Below the pieces are notes generated by a model. The model did not search any database. It worked only from the letters and a program-made list of their open reading frames with translations, and was not told where the DNA came from. Source: Lineus longissimus (Eukaryota; Nemertea; Pilidiophora; Heteronemertea; Lineidae). From it: DNA of 64,000 bases. Within the stretch, counting starts at the first letter, position 1. Every line of letters starts with the position of its first letter. The position numbers and the translations under genes are program-made. Location of the stretch: the NCBI RefSeq assembly GCF_910592395.1, contig NC_088308.1, positions 4,960,001 to 5,024,000 on the forward strand, given 5' to 3'. Positions 1,648 through 61,000 of the stretch are shown here, in pieces.

Positions 1648-5991
<4,344 letters not shown>

Positions 5992-20400: not shown

Positions 20401-22603
20401 TGACAGAAAAATTTGCAAGAAAGCGCTCAATAAGAAAGCAACAACTCTGCCTGAGCAATTGCTAATTTCGCCAAGTGAAAAATGGGCCAACTGCTTACCT
20501 TCGACCTTCATGAGGTGGAATGTATCCTGGACAGCTCGGAGACTAGGGTCGTTTCTGAACGCGTGTGACCACACCTGAATCAGTTCAAGGATCTTGGGTT
20601 TCACTGGATCAGTTCTTGTCTGAAAACAAGGGGGACATCTTAGCTTTTAGACTAGAGTATTCAGTAGACTTGTATAAATTCAAAGAATTTCTATTCGAAG
20701 AAACTTCAGGAAGCTTTTGTACAATGACAGTTCCAGAAAGAAGAGAAAATTAAGCTGGTACTATGTTTTGATAATATTATACCTTTGCCTGGTCTTTCAA
20801 GAATTCCATAAACTCCTTGCTGCCAACCTCTCCGTGGATAGTCGACCCACAATTTTTCACGGCAGATTCCAGAACCTAGAAAAACATTGAACAAAATTAA
20901 GTCACATCCAAAAAAATGTTTCTTTGGAGACAAAATGAGTTAATGACACAAGAACTAGTAATATGGTGAACAAACTGCACAGCTTAGTTCTTATATGAGG
21001 CGAACATCAGAGGTTTTAAAGATGAGATTAATGAAACGGCCAGGGGCCATTGTGCTCACCGTATAGATATTTGGTGCTTTGTAATTCATCCAGATTAAGA
21101 AACATTGTACATGTATAGTATATAGGTTAAACCAAAGTCGGTATGACATGTGATGTATCGTTGCTTGGAGTAAGTACCATAAGAATATCATCAAAAACAA
21201 GTCAATAATAAACGAGATATTGCACTTTTTACCTATTTTAGTTTTGGCCTCCTGGTGGCCGAGTTGAGTACCAGATCAGATCGAAATTCGGTGTCCGAGG
21301 TTACATGACGTAGGGAGTCATGTGTATCAAATTTCAAGTTCAAAGCTTTAGTGGTTAAGAAACGTGCCATAGTTACAATCAAACGACAAATTTACGCCAT
21401 TTGACCTCTGTGACCTTGAAAAGCAGGTCAGATCAAAAACTCATATGATATGTGATGTATCCTTGCTAGGAGAACCTACCATAAAAATGTTATTGAAAAC
21501 GAATCACTAAAAATAAGCAAGATATTGCACTTCTTACTTTTTCCATTATGGCCCCCTGGTGGCCGAATAAAGAATCAGATCGAGCCAAAATTTGGCATCA
21601 GAGGTTATCTGATGTAGGGGGTTATATGCACCAAGTTTCAAGTTCATAGCTTTACTGGTTAAGAAACGTGCCATAGTTTACACTCTAACGGCCAATTTAC
21701 GCCATATGACCTCTGTGACCTTGAAAAGTAGGTCAAATTGAAAACCCGTAAGATATGTGATGTATTCTTCCTAAGGGTACCTACCATAAAAATTTAATCG
21801 AAAACAAGTCACTTATAAGCGAGATATCACACTTTTTAGATTTCCACTTTTGGCCCCCTGGTGGCAAAGTTGAGAATCAGATCAAACTGAAATTCAGCAC
21901 CAGAGGCTATGTGATATAGGGGGTTATATGTACCAAGTTTCAAGTTCATAGCTTTAGTGGTTAAGAAACGTGCCATAGTTTACACTCTAACGGCCAATTT
22001 ACGCCATATGACCTCTGTGACCTTGAAAAGTAGGTCAAATTGAAAACCCGTAAGATATGTGATGTATTCTTCCTAAGGGTACCTACCATAAAAATTTAAT
22101 CGAAAACAAGTCACTTATAAGCGAGATATCACACTTTTTAGATTTCCACTTTTGGCCCCCTGGTGGCAAAGTTGAGAATCAGATCAAACTGAAATTCAGC
22201 ACCAGAGGCTATGTGATATAGGGGGTTATATGTACCAAGTTTCAAGTTCATAGCTTTAGTGGTTAAGAAACGTGCCATAGTTTACACTCTAACGGCCAAT
22301 TTACGCCATATGACCTCTGTGACCTTGAAAAGTAGGTCAAATTAAAAACCCGTATGATATAAGATGTATATTTACTATGAGTACCTACAACAAAAGTTTC
22401 ATCGAAAACAAGTCACTAATAAGCGAGATATCACAGTTTTTAGATATCCACATTTGGCCCCCTGGTGGCCAAGTAGAGAATCAGATCGGACAGAAATTTA
22501 GTGTCACGGGTCATCTGACCTAGGGGGTCATGTGTACAAAGTTTTAAGTTCATAGGCCTAGCGGTTAAGAAACGTGCCACTGTTTTTGAACTAGGATACG
22601 ACG

Positions 22604-24884: not shown

Positions 24885-25540
24885 GTATGGGCGGTTATTT
24901 CCGCATAAATAGAGGTTGTCTCAAATAGACATTTTATGTCGTGTTATGACTCGAATAGACGTTTGGTGGCGCTCGTTTTAACGGAGACGTACCTGAAATA
25001 AACATATTGTGTCGTATCTCAAATAGACATACACTCAAATAGACGTTTGGTGGCGCTTGTATCTCAAATAAAGCGCCACCAAACGTCTATTTGAGTGTAT
25101 GTCTATTTGAAAAGCGCCACCAAACGTCTATTTGAGTTATACACAAAAATCAGAAAACACGACAATATGTTTATTTGAGATACGAGCGCCACCAAACGTC
25201 TATTTGAGTGTATGTCTATTTGAAAAGCGCCACCAAACGTCTATTTGAGTTATACACAAAAATCAGAAAACACGACAATATGTTTATTTGAGATACGAGC
25301 GCCACCAAACGTCTATTTGAGTGTATGTTTATTTGAAAAGCGCCACCAAACGTCTATTTGAGTTATACACACAAATCAGAAAACACGACAATATGTTTAT
25401 TTGAGATACGAGCGCCACCAAACGTCTATTTGAGTGTATGTCTATTTGAAAAGCGCCACCAAACGTCTATTCGAGTCATAACACGACATAAAATGTCTAT
25501 TTGAGACAACCTCTATTTATGCGGAAATAACCGCCCATAC
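24885..25540. mobile_element. 656-bp foldback element with 113-bp internal tandem repeats
   Basis: The arms are perfect inverted repeats for 89 bp, from GTATGGGCGG at 24885 inward and its complement ending at 25540. AAGT at 24881-24884 and 25541-25544 looks like a 4-bp target-site duplication. The right half holds a 113-bp unit starting GCGCCACCAAAC at 25073, 25186, 25299 and 25412. The word AATAGACGTTTGGTGGCGCT and its complement recur throughout. There is no open frame of note. It lies about 540 bp upstream of the HGS start. Confidence 0.9.
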
Positions 25541-42845: not shown

Positions 42846-42882
42846 CTGTATAGGCCATGGGACGAGTGTGAAAAATGTGAAG

Positions 42883-43742
42883 TTCCGTTTGACAAATTAG
42901 CGGGCAAATTGAAAACAGTCGTTTTTGGGTAATATGGGGGTGCTGATTTAAAAAATCAATTTTTCTCCTGCGTAAAGTTGCACATTAAGTCAGAAATGGT
43001 CCAAATTAGGGGTCAAAAAGTTGATGTCATCGAAACATGTCAACATGGGTATCAAAATGAAGGTCTATGGGGGTACTTTAACATTACATAGTTTTTGGCC
43101 CGACTAACGAACCGTGGGACCCCCCAGGGAGGGTCAAAAAGGGCAAAAGTGGTAACTTTGACCGCCTCCCATGAGCTTCATGGGCACCGCATGTGGATAA
43201 AAACTGTTTTATTCGACAGTACTCACATAGACCTTTTCATAGATACCCATGACGACACCCTTGGGCAAAAGGTTTTCGAGATCTTAAATTTGGAGCCAAA
43301 AAAGGGGTCAAAATTACTATCTCGGCAACCCTTACCCCGAGAGTGTTGTCATGGGTATCATTTTGAAGGTCTATACGATTACTGTCAAATAAAACAGTTT
43401 TTATCTATTTATAATCCCTATGAAGATCGTGGGACAGGGTCAAAGTTACCACTTTTGCCCTTTTTCACCCTCCCTGGGGGGTCCCACGGTTCGTTAAGGG
43501 GGCCAAAAACTATGCAATGTTAAAGTACCCCCATAGACCTTCATTTTGATACCCATGTTGACATGTTTCGATGACATCAACTTTTTGACCCCTACTTTGG
43601 GACCATTAGGCCCTATTAAGGGTCTCATTTCTGACTTAATGTGCAACTTTACGCGGGAGAAAAATTGATTTTTGAAATCAGCACCCCCCATATTACCCAA
43701 AAACGACTGTTTTTAATTTGCCTGCTAATTTGTCAAACGGAA
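42883..43742. mobile_element. 860-bp long-hairpin (foldback) element
   Basis: The left arm from TTCCGTTTGACAAATTAGC is repeated inverted at the right end (...GTCAAACGGAA at 43742). Similarity is high for at least 280 bp inward, with a few small indels. The middle also folds back (ACCTTTTCATAGATACCCATGA against TCATGGGTATCATTTTGAAGGT), so nearly the whole element could form one hairpin. A 142-codon open frame across it has no recognisable domain and is probably chance. Confidence 0.9.
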
Positions 43743-44370
43743 TCCTTTTTCTAGACACATTTTCGCTGAGGAGTCCTACTTCATCTTGGGCATCATAGGT
43801 TGATAAACCATGGTAAAGAGCAAAAGGCCCAGTAAGGGGTCTGGAAACGTGTTGGAAACCTTTTAAGAGGCTTGCTTACGTTGCATCCTTGACTTGGCAG
43901 AAACCAATGTCAGTTTTTCCTGGTTTCAGCCACACTACCAGACTAGCAATGAGCATGCCACAGCCGGACTTCATCATAGTGAGGAAATTTAAATCCATTA
44001 TCACCACCTCTGCCAATGCCACAACTATCACAACATGTCTTTCGTGAAACAAATCTGTGCCATCAAACATGGCACAAAACTAAAACTGGTGAAGACCAGA
44101 TCAAAAATGACTATAACAAAACCGTTATTTCTGTGACTCAAACATTTAATGCATAAACTTTTCTCAAACAGGCTGGTACAAAGAACTTGTACGCTGTAAT
44201 AATAAAATACAGTCAACAATACACTGCACCTTTGATGGATCATGAAAAAGAAAGCGTGCCTGATCCAAGAGGGTAAACTCCTGTCAAGGAAGTCCATCAA
44301 TTACATCCAGAGCAGTCATTGTATTTACTGTAATATGCCTTATCCTTGGTCTTTATCAAAACACTCTGCA
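43743..44370 (-). other. TMA16 downstream region / 3' UTR
   Basis: Follows the TMA16 stop on the minus strand. No coding exon was recognised. A plus-strand TTTAAT near 44145 reads ATTAAA on the minus strand and is a weak polyA candidate. Confidence 0.35.
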
Positions 44371-46991: not shown

Positions 46992-47226
46992 ACTTCGTCA
47001 ATTGAATACTTCGATGTCAAGAGAAAGTAGTATTTTAAGGGTTATTTTTTGGAACACGCTTTCTACAACATGCCCGAGCTTACGACCACGTGTTTGACTT
47101 CTATTTTTAGTAACACGCACCTGCGGCGATGACGTCAATTGAAAAAATACACCAATCAGAGAGGCTGTAACGGAGGTCTGATGGGCTGCGTAAACACTGC
47201 CACAAAACAGATGGAAAACGAAGAAA
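46992..47226. promoter_or_regulatory. bidirectional promoter TMA16 / HID1
   Basis: Only 235 bp separate the two divergent start codons. Within it I see an E-box CACGTG at 47087-47092, a full CRE TGACGTCA at 47130-47137 and a CCAAT box at 47152-47156. No TATA box is evident. CCAAT and CRE elements are common in compact bidirectional promoters. Shared use by both genes is inferred. Confidence 0.7.
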
Positions 47227-50200
47227 ATGGGAAATTCTGATTCTAAATTAAATTTTCGCAAGGCTGTGATTCAACTTACCACTAAGACACAGGTTATTAT
47301 GATCTCCTGAAATGTGTTCTTCGTATCACGTTGAATTTTTGCTGATTTATCTAATAGTTTTTGAGTAAATGTGAGCTCAACTTGACCAAGAAATTTTGTA
47401 ATGTAAAAATGCACTGCAAACTACATCTAATGCATGCTGAATGTATCATCATGTTGCCAAGAAAATGATGAGACAATCTTACATTCAATCTGAATGCAAC
47501 TGTCAAGCCCCATCTAATGCCACCGTCACAAGCGATGCCCCCTAGGACGTGCTAGAACATAGGCCTCTGTCTAAACCTCTTTGATTTATATCAACTCTTT
47601 CAGCCAGTGGAAGCCGGAGATGAAGCTTTCTGGAACCAGTTTTGGTCGGAGACGGTCACGTCTGTCCAAGATGTGTTCACGCTCATCCCAGCTGCAGAGA
47701 TCCGAGCGTTGAGGGAGGAGTCGCCCTCAAATCTTGCCACGCTCTGTTATAAAGCAGTGGAGAAGTTGGTGCAAGCTTCAGAAGGAGCATGTGGCACATA
47801 CAAAGAACAACAAACAGGTATACACAATGTTGTGAAAACTAAAAGATGTTTCCAAAATTCTTTTTGAATCAAATGTCCGATGAGGCGTTTTGAATTCCTC
47901 AAAGTGAACCTGAAGGCTGCATATGTAGGACTGGGAATGGCAAAGAGACGAGCCTGCTGAAAAATACTTGCGACTGAACTATGTTTGCTTGAATTAACCC
48001 TCTAACAAAAGGTCCATGAAGCAGAGAGTGGTATCAATTAACATAATCTGTCTGAACTGATTGAATGCCGACAAAAGAACACAAGATGCTGTTCTGGGAT
48101 GGAATTGGTATTCCTGTGTCTTAGTTTTTGTTTCCTGACCCTGGTTTTGTCATTCTGTACATAATGACATTTTGTTTCTGTTCTAGTTTTGAACTGTGTG
48201 CGGTTGTTGACCCGAATCTTGCCATACATCTTTGAAGATCCAGACTGGAGGGGGTTCTTCTGGTCAACTATGCCTGGCCAATCAAACGAGGAGCATGTTG
48301 AGGTATATTAAGGGTATAAGCATGTCGATAGGGTTACATCTCGGGCAAAATATCAGTCATGTCTATGTCATTGTCACAACAGTGAAATACCTTAGTAACA
48401 GTCGACACCATGTAGCAGCAGTCGTAGTTATACAGTGAAACCTCCCTTAGCGGACACCTCTCTATTGAGGACACTGCATTTGGTACCAAACTGGTTGTTT
48501 ACATTGAAATTGACCTCTGTAATCAGGACACTTCTCAAGTAAGGACGCATTTGTCAGTCCCAAGGGTGTCCTTGATAGTGAGGTTCTGCTGTAGTATACC
48601 CCTGGGTGGTGCATTTTACTAAATGTGTGATGAAATTTGGCGAAGTTCAGGAACGAAATTCATGGCTCTTCACAAATTCAAGTGTCTTGTCAGATGAGAC
48701 TAAAAACTGTGGTCTTTGTACCTGAGTATGTATATTCTCAAATTTCAGAATGAAAGTGCACCGTTGGCTCAGTCGCTTCTAACAGCTTTGGCGGTAAGTA
48801 CATGTATCTTGCATGCTAGGTGTCTGAATGGGTGCAGGCTTGAACCCACCCAATGTGATTGAAAGGGGTTGGTAATAACAATAGTAAATGTAGCAGAGTG
48901 GTCAAATTTACAGACTGAGAATAATACTGCATACCAGTTAGTTGACAGGTGTCACTGAAAATTGTAAAAATAAACTTTTAAATGTTGTTATATCTTCCAA
49001 CCTTTCAGGATCTTTTGTTCTGCCCTGACTTTTCGGTTGCATCAGCCAAAAAGGCTGGCCCAGTAAGTATGATTCACTATTCTACTCTACTTCCTGATCT
49101 AACCAAATGGATGGGCTGTCTAATTCAATCTGGCTGTGAATACCTATGCCTCAACCTAACTAATAGGTCAAAGAGTTACAATTTGATAAACAATATTGTA
49201 CTAATAGTTTTCCGGACTATCTGTGCATCTGTGCAACAGATTCATCTTATTTTCAAGGATTTTCATGATTCTTCATTGTTTATTGTTTGTCCTAGTGATT
49301 CATGTCACCACTCTGTGGCTCTGACAGTTGCAAGTTTTCTCCCACCTGATCGGTTTTGCTTACAACCTTTGACGAGTCACTTTGCTTCATTTAATTGCAA
49401 CAATTACCCTTTTAAAATGAGCTATATCACTGTGATGTTGATGTGTGAATGAATTGCTTTCAAAAAGGCTACAGTTTAGTCTGTTGCTTTATTGAGTTTT
49501 ACTCCATCTATGTGATGCAATCCATTGCAAATGGAATTTTGCGCCTCATGATCATTGATAGGTTGAAACCAAATTCTACCCCCAGCGATATTTCAAAGAG
49601 TTGTTTTCTTTTATGATTAATTTTTACTGTCTTTGCCATCTCCCGTCCTTTACTTTTCTAAAAACACAGTTAGAAATATTTTCCCTATTTGTCTTTTATC
49701 AAGAAAACATTATTTGCATCTTCTGCATTTTGATATAAATCTGATCAGAGATATTTAATCGAACTACAAGCTTTTGAAAACCAGCTTCACAACCTCTTGC
49801 CCTCTCTTAATGTTTGCATTCCATTTTTATACAAAATAAGTTTTTATCTCCACTGTCCCGTCATTATCTCTTTCTGCTTGTACATGTAAATTCACTATAA
49901 CCTTTCTGTTTAGTGCACAGTCTACTGATTTGAGATAGATCGTTTAATCTCAAGCTTACATCTTCCTTCAGGCACCAGTTCATATTCTGAGTGATGAAAA
50001 GGATGGTGTCTCAGTAAAACTATAACTTTATATGCCTGATATATCATCATGTATCCTAATTGACTACGGCACTAATGGGATGGCACTGGACCAAAGTGGG
50101 TACCGGTAGACATTTCCCACCCTTCAGCTTGAACCATACAATGAATGCTATTTCAACTGAATTACTGTTTGACTGAGCTGTCAGCCCAGTTTGCTACTCT

Positions 50201-53200
50201 CCCTATAATTCCACACCCACCAAAGAAAGGCACCTGCCCCTCACCTGGTAACATCACACTACTTGCCCCCCATGAATGTTGTTAAAATGAATTTCCCCTC
50301 TGCCATTAGGATAACCCTGAGGATATCTCAACCATAGACAGCTGTGAATATATCTGGGAATCGGGGGTAGGATTCGCACATTCCCCGCACCACAATGGCT
50401 ACCACGAACAGAACCGATCTGAAATCCTTAAGCTTCTTTTGACGTGCTTCTCTGAAACTATGTACCTGCCCCCTGTCGGTGAGTAATGAAATGGCATGTT
50501 AGCAGACGAGGATCATGGTAGTCAACCTGGCAAGCAAGCTGATTTCTGCAGTGATGATTTCATCTTGAACTGTCTTGTCTAGTGTACTTTTACTGACAGC
50601 AGATTTACAGCTTTTGAAGGTTTTAGACGTAATTTTCTCAAAATGTGTTTATGTATCTATGATAATCTTGAAATAATTAAGGGTTGTGTTACAATCTAGA
50701 AGAAGGAGCTATATTGTTAGATAAAATGATGCAGCATTTGTGTGATTCTGACAAGAAATCTTTTTTTCTGCTAGCTACATCAGAAATGGGACTGAGAGTC
50801 TTGGTTGACAGATTGTCCTTTTAAAATAACGATTGCAAATAAAAGCCTGCGTCAAGCCTATATAACGACGGAGAAACATAACTGGTACTCTTTGAAAAAA
50901 GCTCTGAATCTGCTGACATCTCTCTCTTTTAGTTCCCTGGTGTTCGTGTATGTTGAATGATACCATACTGTTATTCTTTGTTCAAATGAAATTATCACTG
51001 CCTGGTCTACTTTGGAGTCGCATGTACGTTTACAAATTGAAATAATGAAATGACCAAAGTTTGCTTTTATCTCAATGCAGTAGCAATGGATAGAATTCTA
51101 GATCACTCTTGTAAATCATTTCATATTGGTCGCTTTTTGATGACAATTTGTGTACCAATGAGAAATCAAGACTCCTGAAACTCTTGCCATGGTTGACGAC
51201 TGTTGGTTGCTCAAATTAGGTGTGGTGTTGTATCGAACATTTTACTGGCATCCCTCCCCAGATAGATCGCATGAGCATGTTCATTCTGTTTCAGTACGTT
51301 TGTGGCTTAGAGGTTGATGTTTTATCTATGCTTGCAACTTTCAGGTCAGAGGGATATTTATTTGAGCCTTTCCAGGAGCTGGTGTGGAATTTGCAAGAGA
51401 CAGGATTTTCATGTACAACTTGGTTCAGTGTACAAAAACAAAAATATTCCTAACATTATAATTATAATCTCAGGGGAAAAGTTTTGAGTCAAAAAAGGAA
51501 GGTGTACATTATACATTGCATATTATGCATCCCAGAACCTACTTGTGTTTATAGTAAGGTGTCTGTGAGTTGTACACATGTCATATGCTGAACCTTGTTA
51601 AGTGAAAATCTTGTTGAAAACAGCTAAGAAAACGGCTTAGTTCCCTCTTCTGCTGTCTAAAGTCTCTGCTTGTGTCTGCGTTTGTATCTAGGATAGACCT
51701 GAGGATATACAAACGATAGACAGTTGCGAGTACATCTGGGAGCAGGGTGTCGGGTCGGTGCACTCTCCATCAGTCAGTCGACACCATGACGAGGCGCGTA
51801 TGGAAATACTTACCCTGATATTGACGTGCTGTTCTGACTGCATGTACCTGGCGCCGAACGGTGAGTACGTGGACAAGAGTGGCACGGAGATAGAAGGAAA
51901 TGACATTTCCAGGGAGAGCCTTGAGAGGGACCCGTTTGCCTCCTGCTTATCAACTCTTGTGTGAAAGCATTAATAAAAAGCACTAACAGACCACCCCTAA
52001 CAATAATCAATCTCAGATGGTATCTCTGATAAAACTGGTAGTACTGTTGAATGGATGCAACTATCCGGGTTGTATTTAGACTTCAGGAATGATAACCTTT
52101 GCACACTGGTAATTTGCTATAATGGAGGCATCAACAACATCACTGCAGCAATTTCGTTGATCCCTTGAGGGATATTGATAAAATGCCATTTGAGTATATA
52201 TGCACTTAGAGTGTTTCGTTTTGTGTGGATGACCAGTAACTTTACAGAATCCATTTCTCCATTTACCTTTCGGTGGTTGTGATGTTTATACTTTGTTTAA
52301 TTTTTGGCTTTTGTCATCAGTTGTGTGTTGTACATAACAAATGTATAGTCAGTTGTAGATGAAAGTTTGTAACAAGTGTATTGAGTTTTTTGTCAGAAAT
52401 ATGTACATGTAACATCTCTTATAAATTTTACTTCAGAATGTATTTCCTGTGAACCTGGCAAAGTGAACATCCACTTGGCTTCTGTTGAAAAACTTGTACT
52501 TTTGAACCGTATGTTTCAGCGAAACAGACATTGTCTGAGCAAGGTACCTCTGTGTTGCGGCAGATGCCTAGCCTCCTTTGGGAAGATGTCATTAGACCCA
52601 TAGAAATCTGTGGTGCATCTCTGGTCTTTAAAATGGAGAACGTCATACTCATTCTATATTTCTCAGAATGCAAAAAACTAACCAATATTACTTTCCTTTC
52701 TAGCTGATGCACACATTCATTCCAACCAGTGGATCTCTCATTTCACCTCCACAGAAAATAGGTAATAATCTGTTGTCAGTCAGTCCAGGGTACTCCGATC
52801 ATTGGGAAAGATCCAGGTTGGCTCAGCCCTTACCCCTTCCTTGAGAAATTCCAGAGCTGCATGGCTTAGTGCCTGCTTGTCTACTTCCTCTGAGCAATAA
52901 GGGTGACAAAACCTGGTGAAATATTTGGTATTGTTTGTGATTTTGAGTCCTGGTGCTGTATACCTGCTACAAAAATAACTCATGAGGGTGATTTCAACTA
53001 AACATCCTAAATCTGTTCATCCAGATTGGGAAAACTCTGATTTTGACCAGAATTTATATTTCAAATGAAAATTTAAAGTTACGTTGTCTTCATTCGATTC
53101 AGGCATGCCCTGCCACTCTTCACTTCATTGCTGAACATCGTGTGTGCCTACGATCCGGTTGGCTATGGCGTGCCCTACAATCACTTGATGTTCTCCGACT

Positions 53201-56200
53201 TCCGAGAGCCATTGGTGGAGACGGCTCTCCAGGTTCTGTGTGTGATGATGGAGAATGATTCGAACAACATTGGTGGAGAACAGACTCCTCAGAGTCCTGG
53301 CTTGGAGCATAGTGATTCGCATAGTGAGGTATGTATGTGTCAAAAACAGTAAAGGAAATTGTCATGAGAAAGGCATGTTGGATTGGTCAGCGCACAGTGC
53401 TGGATGATGAAAATAAAGCAGGTTTCTAGTAGGTTATTTGTCCATTCCCTGTCCCGTCACACATCAAAATTTGATATTTTCTGTCATTTAACCTTTGCAG
53501 GCTGGCGGACCTGATAATCTGTTTGTCAACTATCTGTCGAGAATTCATCGAGAGGAGGACTTCTCTTTCATTCTGAGCGGTATCACGCGTCTGTTGAACA
53601 ATCCCCTGATTCAGACCTATTTGCCAGGATCCACCAAGAAGATCCAATTCCACCAGGAGTTGTTGGTTCTCTTCTGGAAGATGTGTGACATAAACAAGGT
53701 ATGAGATGATGTTAGGCCTCTAAACATGGAAATCATGGTTGAAGGACTATAATTCATGATTAGGCTTGATGCTGATAGGCTGAAAAGTAGGAGTGGCATA
53801 CAGTTATCAGAGAAAACCCTCAATCGGCTGCATCCTTCATTTCTGGCTGCAGTGGATTGGTACTGGTATGATGCTTATCAGTAACTGATATCTCTCATAA
53901 GGAAGGCTGGTCTCATAATAATGCAACACCAAATGTTTTGTCAACATGGTCGATAACCTCGTCTGATCCACTTTTCAGAAATTCATGTTTTACGTGTTGA
54001 AGAGTAGTGATGTTCTCGATATCTTGGTTCCAATTCTCTATCACTTGAATGATGCCAGAGCTGATCAATGTGAGTATGTCTAAGATTGAAATTCTACATT
54101 ACTCTTGACATGCTACTCCTGTCTCTTACTTTGATTGGATCCTTCGATGCCCCAGCACTCTACCATGCTTCCCTTCAGATGTCATATTGATAAACTTGTC
54201 TTTTCAGCTCGTGTTGGTCTGATGCATATTGGTGTCTTCATTCTTCTGTTACTGAGTGGGGAGAGGAACTTTGGTGTTCGGCTGAACAAGCCGTACAATG
54301 TGCGCATTCCTATGGACATTCCAGTTTTCACAGGAACTCATGCTGACTTCCTTATAATTGTAAGTATCTTCAAATATACTGAAAAGTTCTATGAAGATGA
54401 GCCCCATATGGATCGATGTGTTATTGTTACCTTTTGTAAGCCTTTTATACATGGTCTGCATGTTCTGTTTTCAGGTATTCCACAAGATTATTACGACTGG
54501 TCACCAGAGACTGCAGCCACTCTTTGATTGTCTCCTTACTATTGTTGTTAATGGTAAGTCCACATCTAACCAAACCTGTTGTGGGAGCTAGATCAAGTCA
54601 AAAGTGAATATCTATCCCTCCAGAACTTCCCTTGAGCCAAAGAAAAGTAAAATATAACTATTATAGTATAGCTGCCACGCACAAACTGCTCAACAGTAGC
54701 AATGAATTATGTTAAAGTCTGTAGAAGTCCTATTTCCCTTGATTTGAAAAGGTTTTCCAATTCTTTACTTCAGTATCCCCGTATCTAAAGACTTTGTCTA
54801 TGGTAGCCAGCACGAAACTACTTCATTTGTTGGAGGTAAGCATTTCACGAAACTTCGAAATTTAATCGCCTCAAATCGAGGTTTACAGTTTTATATACCG
54901 GTACATGTACCGTAATGTGAAATTTCAAATCCATCCTGAGGGCAAGCTTAATGATGTTTATTGCTAGGGCACTGCCTTTGAAAGATTTCTAACTCTCCCT
55001 ATGTTGCAGGCATTTCTAACACACTCTTCCTATGTTGTAGGCCTTCAGCACTCCATGGTTCCTCTATGCTAGTCCTACAAATCATCATCTGGTGTTTTTC
55101 CTGCTTGAGGTCTTCAATAATATTATACAGTATCAGTTTGATGGTAAGTTTTCTAGTTTCTTGCCTCAACATTTTTTGTGTTAATTTTCACGGCTCTGAT
55201 ATTAGTCTTATGCCTGTGATAATATTTCCATCTTCCATACTTCACCACAGACTCGGAGTTTAATCCCATCGCCCTTGAACAAGTATGTTTGATGCACTGC
55301 GATTTCAATAGTTCCTTGTCATAGTCCGCCTCTTCTGAGATTTGTGTCCAAGGTGAGAAAAAGTTTGGAACTTATATAGCTCAATTTCATGTGATCATAA
55401 CAAGTCATTTGATATATAAACTTGAATGTCTGCAATAATCTTATAATTAGCAACACCCTGTAATAAGTTTTGTTGCACTTCAGGTAATGCCAATCTCGTG
55501 TACACGATCATACGGAAGCGTAACGTGTTCCACCAGTTGGCCAATCTACCCACTGATCACAGCGCCATTGCCAAGGCTGTCACGAAGCGAGGAAAGAAGT
55601 TTGGTACTCATCAGACGCCAGATGGATCTGCTGAGCCGCCAACCATGGAAGGGGCTCTGCCGGCTACAGATGCTGAACCTGGCACTCTCAAGGCAACTTT
55701 GCTTGCTACGCCAGGTAGGCCGATTGTTCAATTTTAGTCAGTAATTTTTAAAGTAATTGATTTTTACTGTCACTTACAACCTAATGTTTTTGATGTTGAC
55801 TAGATAGTGCAAATGGTGTTGGAAGACTTGAAAGTTTAGTAGAATATCCATCAGGAGAATGAATCGGTATTCGTATTCTTATGATTTCTTTTCTGAAATC
55901 ACCAGGTATTGAAAAAATGACTGAGACATCAACTGCCACTGCACATCGACTGTCTCCCGAGCATGAAGCTGGCCCAACAGTGGCTGGTGCGGCTGTGGCT
56001 GCAGTGCACAGCAGCTCAGCCAGGAAAGAAGACAGCGAGAACAGCACTCCTGAGAAGGTAACGTTGAGGGACATCGCCGAGGGCGCAAGGAAAGATAGAA
56101 TGGATTTCAGCGGGACTGAATCGGGTTCTGACGGCCAGAGAGAGTCTGAAATGCCAGTGAAATTGACTAAACAACAGAGCATGGTAAGGACAAGTTCCAG

Positions 56201-58080
56201 TCTTTTGTGTTAATGATTATTTCAATATGCAACTTCAAGCAACAGGTCCACCTGACTATTGCAGGGTACTGCAGCAAATGCAGTATAGATTGATTTCGCT
56301 GTTAAAGATTGGCTTATAGCAACAAAGCCTGCTAAAGCTGGAGACTGCAACTGTTGTATGGTTTTATTGTGGCTTATGTGATTTTAATTCCTACTTTAGG
56401 ATGCTCATTCAAATAACATGTGCTAACCCTTCCAATTTTAGCCCACTCCACCACAAAGCCCATCGCCCACTCATTCAGCTTCATCAGAATACAGCCGACC
56501 ACCAATGAGGAAGTCTGCCTCATCCAGCAATGCTGCAGGATCCTGGGTGGCCACCCCTGACTGGGTAAGTCTGATCTCATAGTACATTCAATTGATTTGA
56601 GAGTGAGACCGCAGAGAGGCTCTAGCTGATGAAAAGAACCTACCTTTTTGTGACAACTTTTGGTAAGAACATTTTTTGGTAGAGCAAGACATTTTGTATG
56701 AAATTTACGAGAGAGATTAAAATTGATGCTTCTTTTAATACATCGCTCTTCGTGAACATTGGGAACCATTTTTATCTGGATTTTCATAAACAGGATGGAT
56801 ACTAACTTCTGTCTTCTTGGCTTAGCTTGCTTACAGAGTTGACAATGTCTTTAAGGAAAACAAGGTGATGCATGGTCTCTGCATCATAGCATGCCATCAG
56901 TTTCTTTAGGTTTGTCATGACATGCCACAACATATTTCTTGTATTAAAATTCATGCACAATGAACTATCGTTTCATTTTATTTTAATAGAGAGTGCAAGA
57001 ACAAATTTGAAAATCATGGCTACCCCAGTAGTGGGTGTAATTTTTAGCCACTCAGATAGACACAGATAGAAGTGAAATGGGAAAAAATGGCCCTGTCTTT
57101 CTCCTAATAGTCCTATGCCTGCAACTTGTCATTGTTATTTCAGGTGATGTCGTGGAAACAGAAGTTGCCCCTACAGACTATAATGAGATTACTGCAGGTG
57201 TTGGTGCCGCAGGTTGAGAAGATCTGTATTGACAAGTAAGTATGATCTGAGCAATGACTGTATTTGTTTGGAGTTTGTACTTGAAATTGAAGCCTCAAGA
57301 ATGTACATTGATTGATTTGAAAGTATTGTCCATTGTTCTACCAGTACTTTCATGTGACACGACATGGGTATGGGCTCCAAGGTGGATGAAGGATTTGTAC
57401 TACTCCTGTAGGCCTGTATGTGGCACACAGTGCAACACAATAATCAGGGCAGAGCAGCAGAAATGATCTTACATTTACAAAATTAATGACTGCAGTGTAT
57501 GACTTCTTGTTGTTTGCACATAAACTTAAATGTCTCTTTTTCTGTTGTTTATAGGGGCCTGACTGATGAGAGCGAGATCCTGAAATTCCTCCAGCATGGT
57601 ACACTCGTTGGACTGCTTCCAGTACCGCATCCCATCTTGATTAGAAAGTACCAGGCCAATAGCGGCACCACGATGTGGTTCAGGACCTACATGTGGGGAG
57701 TTATATACCTCAGGTAAGAAAATACTATGTGCCAGGTTCACTTACTTTGTGAATTGTTCTGGAGAAATTCATTATCCAAGTCAATTAGTTGGGCGAAAAT
57801 GGTTGGTGAAAAACATTGGAAAATCAGTAGTTCTGATCCTTCAACTCATGCCTCATCCAGAAGCTTTAGATTATTTCAAAATGCAATACACTCTAAAACC
57901 ACCTGGGCCTGACAAAATGTTTTGTATTAATTGAAGGATTCCTAATTTGCTAATGACGCTATGTTTCTTAGTCTCACACAACCATTTCCATCACTCAGCA
58001 TCCTATATCTTTTCAGAAATGTGGATCCACCGATCTGGTACGACACAGACGTGAAACTTTTTGAGATTCAACGTGTTTAA
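47227..58080 (+). CDS. HID1: HID1 domain-containing protein (trans-Golgi / dense-core vesicle factor)
   Basis: Peripheral Golgi protein needed for secretory granule formation. Exons: 47227-47292, 47604-47817, 48187-48302, 48749-48793, 49009-49062, 50310-50478 or 51692-51860, 52704-52761, 53103-53328, 53501-53698, 53979-54069, 54208-54359, 54475-54553, 54774-54835, 55041-55143, 55484-55714, 55906-56183, 56442-56564, 57144-57235, 57555-57713, 58017-58080. This gives 859 aa (human about 788). MGNSDS at the start fits N-myristoylation. Strong family matches: VQDVFTLIPAAEIRA, CAYDPVGYG, FVNYLSRIHREEDF, KKIQFHQELLVLFW, RVGLMHIGVF, the PLFDCLLTIVVN segment, and the C-terminus from TDESEIL to FEIQRV. 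The extra length is in the Ser/Pro-rich linker at about 560-750. The first donor, GTTATT, is weak. Confidence 0.97.
48433..48591. mobile_element. TA-flanked MITE, copy 3 (159 bp, inverted)
   Basis: Lies in HID1 intron 3, in the opposite orientation to copies 1 and 2. It starts CAGTGAAACCTCCC and ends GAGGTTCTGCTG, with TA on both sides (48431-48432, 48592-48593). Confidence 0.8.
50310..50478 (+). other. HID1: HID1 exon 6A, candidate mutually exclusive exon
   Basis: 169 nt, phase 0 in and phase 1 out, acceptor CATTAG, donor GTGAGT. It encodes residues 166-222, including DSCEYIWESGVGFAHSP and LKLLLTCFSETMYLPP. This copy is closer to vertebrate HID1. Confidence 0.92.
51692..51860 (+). other. 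HID1: HID1 exon 6B, candidate mutually exclusive exon
   Basis: Also 169 nt with identical phases, 1.2 kb downstream of 6A; acceptor ATCTAG, donor GTGAGT. By my alignment 36 of 57 residues match 6A. DSCEYIWE and the EIL..LILTC core are kept, but the centre (GVGSVHSPSVSRHHDEARM) and the end (CCSDCMYLAP) differ and add two cysteines. There is no stop, and the splice sites are good. Confidence 0.92.
56826..56864 (+). other. HID1: HID1 candidate 39-nt microexon
   Basis: Between exons 56442-56564 and 57144-57235, CTTAG is followed by 39 open nucleotides in frame (LAYRVDNVFKENK) and then GTGATG. Both neighbouring junctions are phase 0, so inclusion would insert 13 residues between PDW and VMSW without shifting the frame. 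Confidence 0.45.
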
Positions 58081-61000
58081 TTGGAGTAACAGGGAAACAT
58101 AGCGGCTGGGTGCAGAATAGCTGTGTGCGTCTGCTAGGAAATGACGCTTTGGAGATATGACATAATGTGGTGAAGGTTGATAGAAATTGGGAGACTAAAC
58201 ATAGACAAATAACCTAATTCTGGGAAAAGGACTTTTAAATGGCTGTAATGAAGTGCCCAGTGTTTCTACAAATTGACCTACAATAAAAAAATTGGGACTT
58301 TCCAACTTGGTGTAGAATCTCCTAGGGGGCGCAGTCACTTGTGTAAGTTCGCTCTGCTCATGAGGTCAGTTTTTATACCAGACAAGTGGCAAACTAATCA
58401 CATCTTGCAAGATCTCCTACTGTTGTGATATAATTTGCTGGCTTTGTTAATAGTTTGCTGTAGCAAAACGTGCCACATGATGTCATTTTATATTCATGAC
58501 ACAACATAATCAGCTGTTGTTACGATGTCTTGAAAAGTTACACAACTTGCTGCGCCATCTACAGGGATTTATCAGACGTCCGCTTCCTCGTTTCAATGAG
58601 CTGGATTATATCAAACTGTACAATGGGCATGTGAACTGCTATTTTATTGTTATCGTTGGGTCATTTTGTAAACAAAAGAATCAGGAGGACTGGGCCTTTG
58701 AATGATTTGACTGCATGGGGTACTACTTAACTGTAACTGTCATGAAGAGTGAAAAAATCCCTGTAAAAAAGTGGACAAATATCACCTCTGAGTGCACCAA
58801 ATGGGGATCAGAATGTATATAATGGTTAGTAGAATATTAGACATAGGGCGTCACCTGGGGTGAGATTTGTTCACTCTTTAACGAAGGTAGATTGGTTCTT
58901 CGTGTACGCTGTATCGCCATCTTTTCACTTGCCTTTAACATACTACTGTCACGTCGCCTAGAGTCTCACGCCGAATGTGGGGTGTGAACCAAGGACCTCT
59001 TCACCACTAGCCAAGAGTCTGTGCCACAACTCCACAATGGCTCCTTTCTTTACAATTTCCTGAAATTACTATATCTAGTCAGGTCACATTTGAATTTTCT
59101 AAATCTCATCAGTTTTTGGCTAATATTTACCTCACAATAGAGGTAAAATTATCTGATTGCCGAATTTATCTCAACAATACTATGCCTTGGTATTGACTTC
59201 TAGAGTTACAAGTGTTTCTTTGGAAAAATATACAACCGTCACACTTTTTGCAGTATCAGTAAAGTTTATATTTTGTTATAATTCTCTGAGTGGTCGAAAA
59301 AAGTGCGGAGGTAAACTGGTTTCTAAGAATATTACACGTAAGTTTATGGTCAGTTTAAAAAGGGATAAGTAGCAGGTCGTTATGGTATGAGATTCATTCA
59401 ATTCGTACACTTGAAAACAAAAAAAAATTGATGTTTTAAGAGATAAAAATGCTTCGAGAAGTGATCTACGGCGAGTCGTCTTGTTAAATATAGGTGGAAA
59501 AAATCATAATATGTCTCACACTAAAAACATTCTAACAAGTGTGAAGAGCAAAAAGTTCAAAAACAAATTGGTGTCTGTGTACATGTATGATATGTATATT
59601 CTGTTGTATTTGTTGTCAGATAGTTTATTCATCAAATTGCTGTAATAGAAGGTACGAATACTGCTTTGTAAACTTTTCAAGGGCTTGGAAGTATTCAGAA
59701 TTTGCTTATTACATTGTGTTTCATTAAGAAAGAGATGGAGATGCCATTTGATGTTCATGAGCATGTTACCCAGCATTCCTGATATCGGATTATGATTGTT
59801 GTCTGGAAGGTTTTGTTGTATAATTTCACTTTTAAGTTTGATTTTATAGATATTCTACATCTGAATGTGACCACTATGAAAGTGGTGTGAATAATTTTTG
59901 AAATATTTTCAAGTATTGACCATAATTCGGAAGGGAATACGGTTGGAAAATTACCGCAATTATTTCCCAAAAACTGTTGTATCTAATTCAAAAATATAAT
60001 TGTTTTAAGCATTTTATAGTTTATTCTGTGTTGTATAATATATTCAGTAGTAATGACTTGCAAGTCTGTGTGATCAAAGGCAAATTGGTCTGTTGAAATC
60101 TCCTCATGTCTTCTCTTGAGAGATCATGTTTTAAACAGCTGGAATTTCAGATATTTCTCCTACTTTGAATGCATTGGTTTCGAATGGGCGCATTTGTAAG
60201 CACTATTGTCGGGCACAGCTTTCGAACTTAACCTGCCTGCTTGATTTTCATTGAGAATGACTCCCAGAATTGCTTTGAGTGAATATTGTTGTTAAAGATT
60301 TGTTAACCTTTCCCATGTGGCTGGGAGATATTCTTGGCTAATGCTCTCCATGCCATCTTGTAGCAGGCTTTAACTAATCTGGTCATGAACAGACAGCAGC
60401 ACTGCCTTGATAGCCTATTTACAATGTTGGCAAGATTTTCGTACATGTAGGTAGGACACAATAGCGTCAATAGGCGAGAATATCTCGTCGGTCCTCGGAC
60501 AGCCGAAAGTTAAGCTGTTTTAGAATTGTGGAAATTCCGCACGAGAAGGGTTCATGGTAAATAAAGTATTCAAGTGAAACTTGCTTAGAATCTGATTCTG
60601 ATGCTCCTGATTTATTTGCACGATTTTGAGAGGAGCAGTGCTTGTCTTCAGGGTGTGTGCAATTTAACATAATTACGTTTAGTTGGTTAGGGCTTGGCTC
60701 ATGACTAGTAGGGTGGTTGAGAACAGCGACATATCAATGATCTGTATACGTATGAGGTTAAAACTCTGCAGAAGGACAAATTTTGTGTACATTTCTATTC
60801 GTGAGAAGTGTCTGTTCTCAACCTCCCTATGGTAAACAACATCAACTACATGTACATACTGTTGTGTGGTAGTCATGTGGTCTTCCATTCCGTGCTCGGA
60901 TCTGTTCTACATCTATTCCTAAGTCTATCCTCGTGTAACAGTACCTTGTATGTACTTCACAACATTGTGTAGTGCTGCCTGGTGTGGATTTAATTAAATA

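Follow-up and report, generated by a model that had tools for sequence, protein, structure and literature searches.

A tandem pair of homologous 169-nt exons in HID1 of the nemertean Lineus longissimus, very probably used as a mutually exclusive cassette

The HID1 gene and its paired exon

The window analysed here is a stretch of 64,000 nucleotides of DNA from the nemertean Lineus longissimus, the bootlace worm. Within it lies a HID1 gene, which we rebuilt by hand on the + strand (47227-58080) with 20 exon slots and GT-AG introns. Two homologous internal exons, 6A and 6B, adjoin one another between exons 5 and 7. The features of the model are as follows.

47227-47292, + strand: HID1 coding exon 1, with the start; MGN with basic residues, like the myristoylated N-terminus of mammalian HID-1
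47604-47817, + strand: exon 2
48187-48302, + strand: exon 3
48749-48793, + strand: exon 4
49009-49062, + strand: exon 5, the common upstream exon, ending in phase 0
49063-50309, + strand: intron 5-6A, 1247 nt, the longest of the 20 introns counted
50310-50478, + strand: exon 6A, 169 nt, the copy resembling the exon of other animals
50479-51691, + strand: intron 6A-6B, 1213 nt, the second longest
51692-51860, + strand: exon 6B, 169 nt, the copy that has diverged and that the public record 'isoform X2' contains
51861-52703, + strand: intron 6B-7, 843 nt, the third longest
52704-52761, + strand: exon 7, the common downstream exon, completing the split codon
53103-53328, + strand: exon 8
53501-53698, + strand: exon 9
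53979-54069, + strand: exon 10
54208-54359, + strand: exon 11
54475-54553, + strand: exon 12
54774-54835, + strand: exon 13
55041-55143, + strand: exon 14
55484-55714, + strand: exon 15
55906-56183, + strand: exon 16, a stretch of low model confidence that is probably disordered
56442-56564, + strand: exon 17
57144-57235, + strand: exon 18; judged by position, the C-terminal domain (PMC10522040) would start about here
57555-57713, + strand: exon 19
58017-58080, + strand: exon 20 and stop codon

Over 859 aa, the protein read from the model with 6B shows 100% identity with the public record 'protein HID1-like isoform X2 [Lineus longissimus]'. Thus an independent annotation coincides with our hand model of all exons but 6A, and public automated annotation already includes the 6B isoform. 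Where a computed annotation gives several isoforms, RNA-seq normally lies behind it. The 90% cluster of the X2 record has two member sequences, and this number together with the suffix 'X2' suggests that the second member, presumably isoform X1, is the 6A form.

The 6B form matches the Pfam Hid1 profile PF12722 over its full length (900.8 bits, profile positions 1-812 of 812), and in this Lineus HID1 is like the HID1 (HID-1) of other animals. The Dymeclin profile PF09742 also matches it full length with a lower score (733.5 bits), and the named close matches are HID1. At the N-terminus the model reads MGNSDSKLNFRK, with Gly2 accompanied by basic residues. Within alignment A1 residues G2, K7, R11 and K12 are nearly invariant, the C-terminal block is largely invariant, and Lineus HID1 is 82% identical to that of the nemertean Tubulanus. 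No Rfam family matched at the gathering score over 47000-58300.

In the rebuilt gene the paired exons have the coordinates, the common length of 169 nt, the phases (0 in and 1 out for both) and the GT-AG splice sites that the original prediction assigned to them. Their peptides are identical at 35 of 56 residues over complete codons, with 21 differing; the predicted homology of 36/57 is reached once the split codon is counted, which becomes GCT (Ala) at exon 7 with either copy. BLASTP aligns the two peptides with 35/55 identities (E 1e-26). When each exon is searched alone its best Pfam match is Hid1, 6A lying at profile positions 180-229 and 6B at 180-230 of 812, with scores of 68.6 and 49.9 bits. 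A tblastn search of the window with both peptides found no third copy, the next best E-value being 0.13 for either peptide. The flanking introns carry no strong homology beyond the exon, as blastn of 49063-51250 against 51251-52703 gave a single strong match comprising the exon and a few bases on each side, with the next best at E 0.39.

A length of 169 nt does not divide by three, so exactly one copy is needed to maintain the frame. HID1 models with 6A alone or with 6B alone are open to 859 aa. If 6A and 6B are joined, the junction reads GGA TAG, creating a stop and a product of 222 aa; with neither copy there is a stop at codon 195 and a product of 194 aa. The length had been predicted to forbid joint inclusion. 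This is correct for the full-length protein, given the stop at the junction, but the length alone does not bar splicing both copies in. A hypothetical 6A+6A arrangement of the present sequence stops at its junction as well (GGA TAA), and so the joint form probably never yielded full-length HID1.

Elsewhere in the window there is a second tandem homologous pair, at 4613-4789 and 5260-5436 (+ strand), with 59 residues in each copy and 68% identity. Both copies match the Pfam Macro domain at profile positions 45-105, and they could represent either a repeated domain or a further pair of alternative exons. We also observe two tandem arrays. The one at 21154-22593 repeats about every 302 nt, and its translated copies are 47-100% alike; the one at 24997-25471 repeats every 113 nt and in places matches the other strand as well. 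A long inverted repeat occupies 42861-43764, its arms in parts 50-100% alike in translation; it may be a foldback-type mobile element, although that name is a guess.

Divergence and conservation of the two copies

A protein search with the 6B form, in which only the 7991 candidates with most words in common were scored, gave 1400 proteins at E <= 0.001; the best 120 were aligned. One of these 120 matches is the Lineus record, carrying 6B. The other 119 are full-length proteins, each nearer to 6A than to 6B with a margin of 5 or more of the 55 residues, and Tubulanus, the other nemertean, has a 6A-type record. The tandem exon event is therefore seen in one species, all 119 other full-length proteins listed being of the 6A type. 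A search with the 6B region for B-like blocks returned only 6B itself, and had a small reach with four candidates. Fragments were also searched; 122 were found and the best 120 listed, of which 48 aligned to either exon and 45 were nearer to A. Three fragments scoring higher with 6B were rejected as short chance matches (15.8-16.9 bits).

Removal of near-duplicates at 93% left 63 other representatives, and residues were counted in 57 of them; the six excluded from this alignment, by choice, are all A-like. The 57 dereplicated orthologues agree without exception at 16 positions of the 56 in the block; 6A keeps all 16 of these and 6B keeps 15, losing Lys206. Over all 119 listed proteins 14 block positions are invariant, with 14 kept by 6A and 13 by 6B. 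The most constrained positions altered in 6B are Lys206, a lysine in 57/57 orthologues and threonine in 6B, and Phe212 (Phe in 56/57), which becomes cysteine. Phe187 is changed to Ser (55/57), Ala188 to Val (55/57) and Pro219 to Ala (52/57). Both copies give the block a net charge of -7, and there are two cysteines in 6A and four in 6B. The comparison with orthologues agrees with the expectation that 6A is near the vertebrate sequence, and that 6B has diverged in its centre and gained cysteines. At residue 198 (6B numbering) 6A has Glu, and Asp is found in 6B and in 56/57 orthologues.

The two exons are identical at 109 of 168 aligned bases. Codon positions 1 and 2 are identical at 85/112, compared with 24/56 for position 3 (Fisher p 2.9e-5). 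Since positions 1 and 2 are so much better conserved than position 3, both copies look selected as coding sequence, and both look old. The estimated dN is 0.28-0.31, and dS is 1.4 (LWL85), 3.5 (NG86) or 5.6 (ML), near saturation. Despite these near-saturated third positions 6B has neither a stop nor an indel. We simulated neutral evolution of 6B starting from the present 6A under a one-rate model, which makes the result a rough guide. At half of the position-3 distance at least 35 identities were retained in 0/20000 runs, and at one third of that distance in 178/20000, 47 of which were also stop-free.

Four placements of 6B were tried on a tree of the 56-residue block with 25 sequences, and none was rejected. 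The AU p values were 0.19 for 6B as sister to Lineus 6A, 0.19 for Tubulanus, 0.92 for both and 0.066 for spiralians.

Two full-length HID1 isoforms had been predicted. This fits the uninterrupted reading of both models to 859 aa, the signs of selection on the pair and the identity of isoform X2 with the 6B form; their either/or use at the level of transcripts we infer.

Splicing signals and the readings of the pair

The pair is flanked and separated by the three longest of the 20 introns (1247, 1213 and 843 nt, the next being 579 nt), an arrangement expected once in 1140 if random. This is compatible with room for splicing control. Both copies have the donor GTGAGT, and both acceptors end in AG. 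Considering what minor-type (U12) splice sites look like, these donors and acceptors rule out an incompatibility of U2 and U12 sites as the means of exclusion. Steric hindrance is ruled out too, since the 1213 nt between the copies is not too short to splice.

Dscam-type exclusion, based on docking and selector RNA structures, operates on tandem homologous exons. Unlike that type, 6A and 6B are only two copies, and an ungapped search of their introns within the single species gave no complementarity beyond chance. The observed score was reached by 57 of 100 shuffles for I5-I6, by 7 for I6-I7 and by 59 for I5-I7. Because the complementarity does not exceed chance, exclusion by RNA structure would appear to have no support for this pair. 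With the short intron and U2/U12 incompatibility excluded and base pairing unsupported, a trans-acting choice coupled with the reading frame remains. Any regulator named for the choice would be a guess, as splicing-factor motifs around the pair offered nothing persuasive, measured against window totals only.

The acceptor of 6B has the lowest score of 20, using a crude leave-one-out matrix derived from HID1 itself. The donor scores, however, are 9.1 for 6B and 7.5 for 6A. Inclusion of 6B may therefore require assistance, though the indication is slight, and 6B could be a minor form.

We consider it very probable that 6A and 6B constitute a tandemly duplicated, mutually exclusive cassette in HID1 of L. 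longissimus. On this explanation one 169-nt exon of phase 0/1 would have been copied in tandem, and only transcripts with exactly one copy would stay in frame. Transcripts with both copies or with neither would be expected to undergo nonsense-mediated decay (NMD). A cell-type-dependent choice of 6A or 6B would be made by trans-acting factors that bind within the three introns, all of them unusually long. Regulated splicing together with frame and NMD would then keep the two copies apart, as in U2AF1, and the HID1 isoforms would differ solely in a block of 56 residues. The worm can thus probably make two forms of HID1.

It is improbable that 6B acts instead as a poison exon, lowering HID1 output through joint inclusion with 6A and giving little or no 6B protein. 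A stop located right at the 6A+6B junction would suit such a function, as would the low score of the 6B acceptor. A poison exon needs no protein constraint, yet conservation is seen at codon positions 1 and 2 where position 3 is nearly saturated. Moreover 6B is exactly 169 nt long and in the correct phase, and the 859-aa protein with 6B replacing 6A is annotated.

We give a little less credence still to 6B being a dead or dying copy, spliced in rarely as noise. The absence of a stop or indel in the face of near-saturated third positions is hard to reconcile with this, as are the retention of 15 of the 16 invariant positions, the low likelihood under the rough neutral simulation and the use of 6B by the public annotation. 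On the other side, the 119 other full-length proteins listed have 6A-like blocks only, and 6B alters a lysine found in 57/57 and a phenylalanine found in 56/57 dereplicated orthologues. Least credible of all would be two ordinary cassettes whose joint inclusion or skipping is also real and generates functional truncated fragments of HID1: there is no sequence bar to the splice 50478-51692 (a 1213-nt intron with GT-AG sites), but the products of 222 or 194 aa would be without the C-terminal domain that is reported as required in PC12 cells (PMC10522040).

Related exon pairs and the meaning of a two-form HID1

The mutually exclusive cassette that we favour has a close parallel in exons Ab and 3 of vertebrate U2AF1, described as tandem homologous exons of 67 nt each that are 'mutually exclusive', with NMD lowering the transcripts that hold both (PMC5224494). 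The Lineus exons are likewise tandem, of equal length, and of a length not divisible by three. The U2AF1 copies are reported to show minor divergence and to have been kept through vertebrate evolution (PMC5224494), whereas 21 of 56 residues differ between 6A and 6B; the U2AF1 exons also belong to another gene and animal group, and their regulators have been studied. More generally, 236 tandem duplicated exon substitution events are reported as annotated in human, mostly ancient and convergent across animal groups (Martinez-Gomez et al. 2022, PMC9741552). The Lineus pair resembles these in being a homologous swap of one block, the remainder of the protein being identical. Twelve families are reported with events in human, fly and nematode, and six of these are ion transporters (PMC9741552). 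HID1, by contrast, is a peripheral Golgi protein, and a word search of the main text of that paper gives no occurrence of HID1.

Mammalian HID-1 has named isoforms, including an 'isoform #2' (PMC10522040); in the searched text of that paper 'exon' and 'splic' do not occur. The searched text of PMC5094852 has 'exon' three times, all in knockout design, and neither 'splic' nor 'isoform'. Within the open-licence full-text literature searched, no mutually exclusive exon in HID1 is described, and nothing links Lineus longissimus with HID1 or nemerteans with mutually exclusive splicing. The statement that such an exon in HID1 was previously undescribed thus seems correct within that literature. As a class, tandem duplicated exons of the mutually exclusive kind are already known; it is their occurrence in HID1 that seems new. 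Unlike Lineus 6B, the block of the 119 other full-length HID1 proteins listed is 6A-like.

Where does the block lie in the protein? AlphaFold models have a mean pLDDT of 61.5 for the 6B form and 59.2 for the A-type Tubulanus protein, which is modest confidence, and we rely upon them for the term 'helical region' only. In both models the block comprises a short helix and a loop, parts of which have pLDDT <50, followed by a confident helix at about 195-211 (6B numbering). Searching the PDB by sequence, no chain matched HID1; by fold there was no match at E <= 0.001, the weak matches including many helical-repeat proteins. The changed residues are not significantly clustered on one helix face (p 0.26 and 0.54).

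Membrane binding of HID-1 is attributed to its first 22 residues, and the functional domain of the mammalian protein is placed at the C-terminus (687-788), where it is required for function in PC12 cells (PMC10522040). The swapped block is outside both. With modest confidence, the models place it in a helical region of the N-terminal part, after the membrane-binding terminus and ahead of the C-terminal domain. Given this position, the most likely effect of 6B would be on the stability or a binding surface of HID1 at the trans-Golgi, and not on the C-terminal effector end.

In mammalian cells HID-1 is reported to act as dense-core secretory granules form and mature, and it is also reported to act in worm neuropeptide signalling (PMC5094852, PMC10522040). 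It is conceivable, though rather unlikely, that 6B provides a lineage-specific second HID1 that has departed from a constraint common to the animals compared, molluscs to mammals (Lys in 57/57 to Thr, Phe in 56/57 to Cys). Such a form might serve a separate granule pathway, in venom, mucus or proboscis glands or in neurons, so that a single gene would run two regulated programmes of granule formation. If one block of 56 residues is a natural two-state switch, it would mark a part of HID1 that can be tuned without loss of function, with 6B indicating which of the residues fixed in other animals may change. The pair would also offer a simple test at the level of RNA of whether different secretory cells use different forms of HID1.
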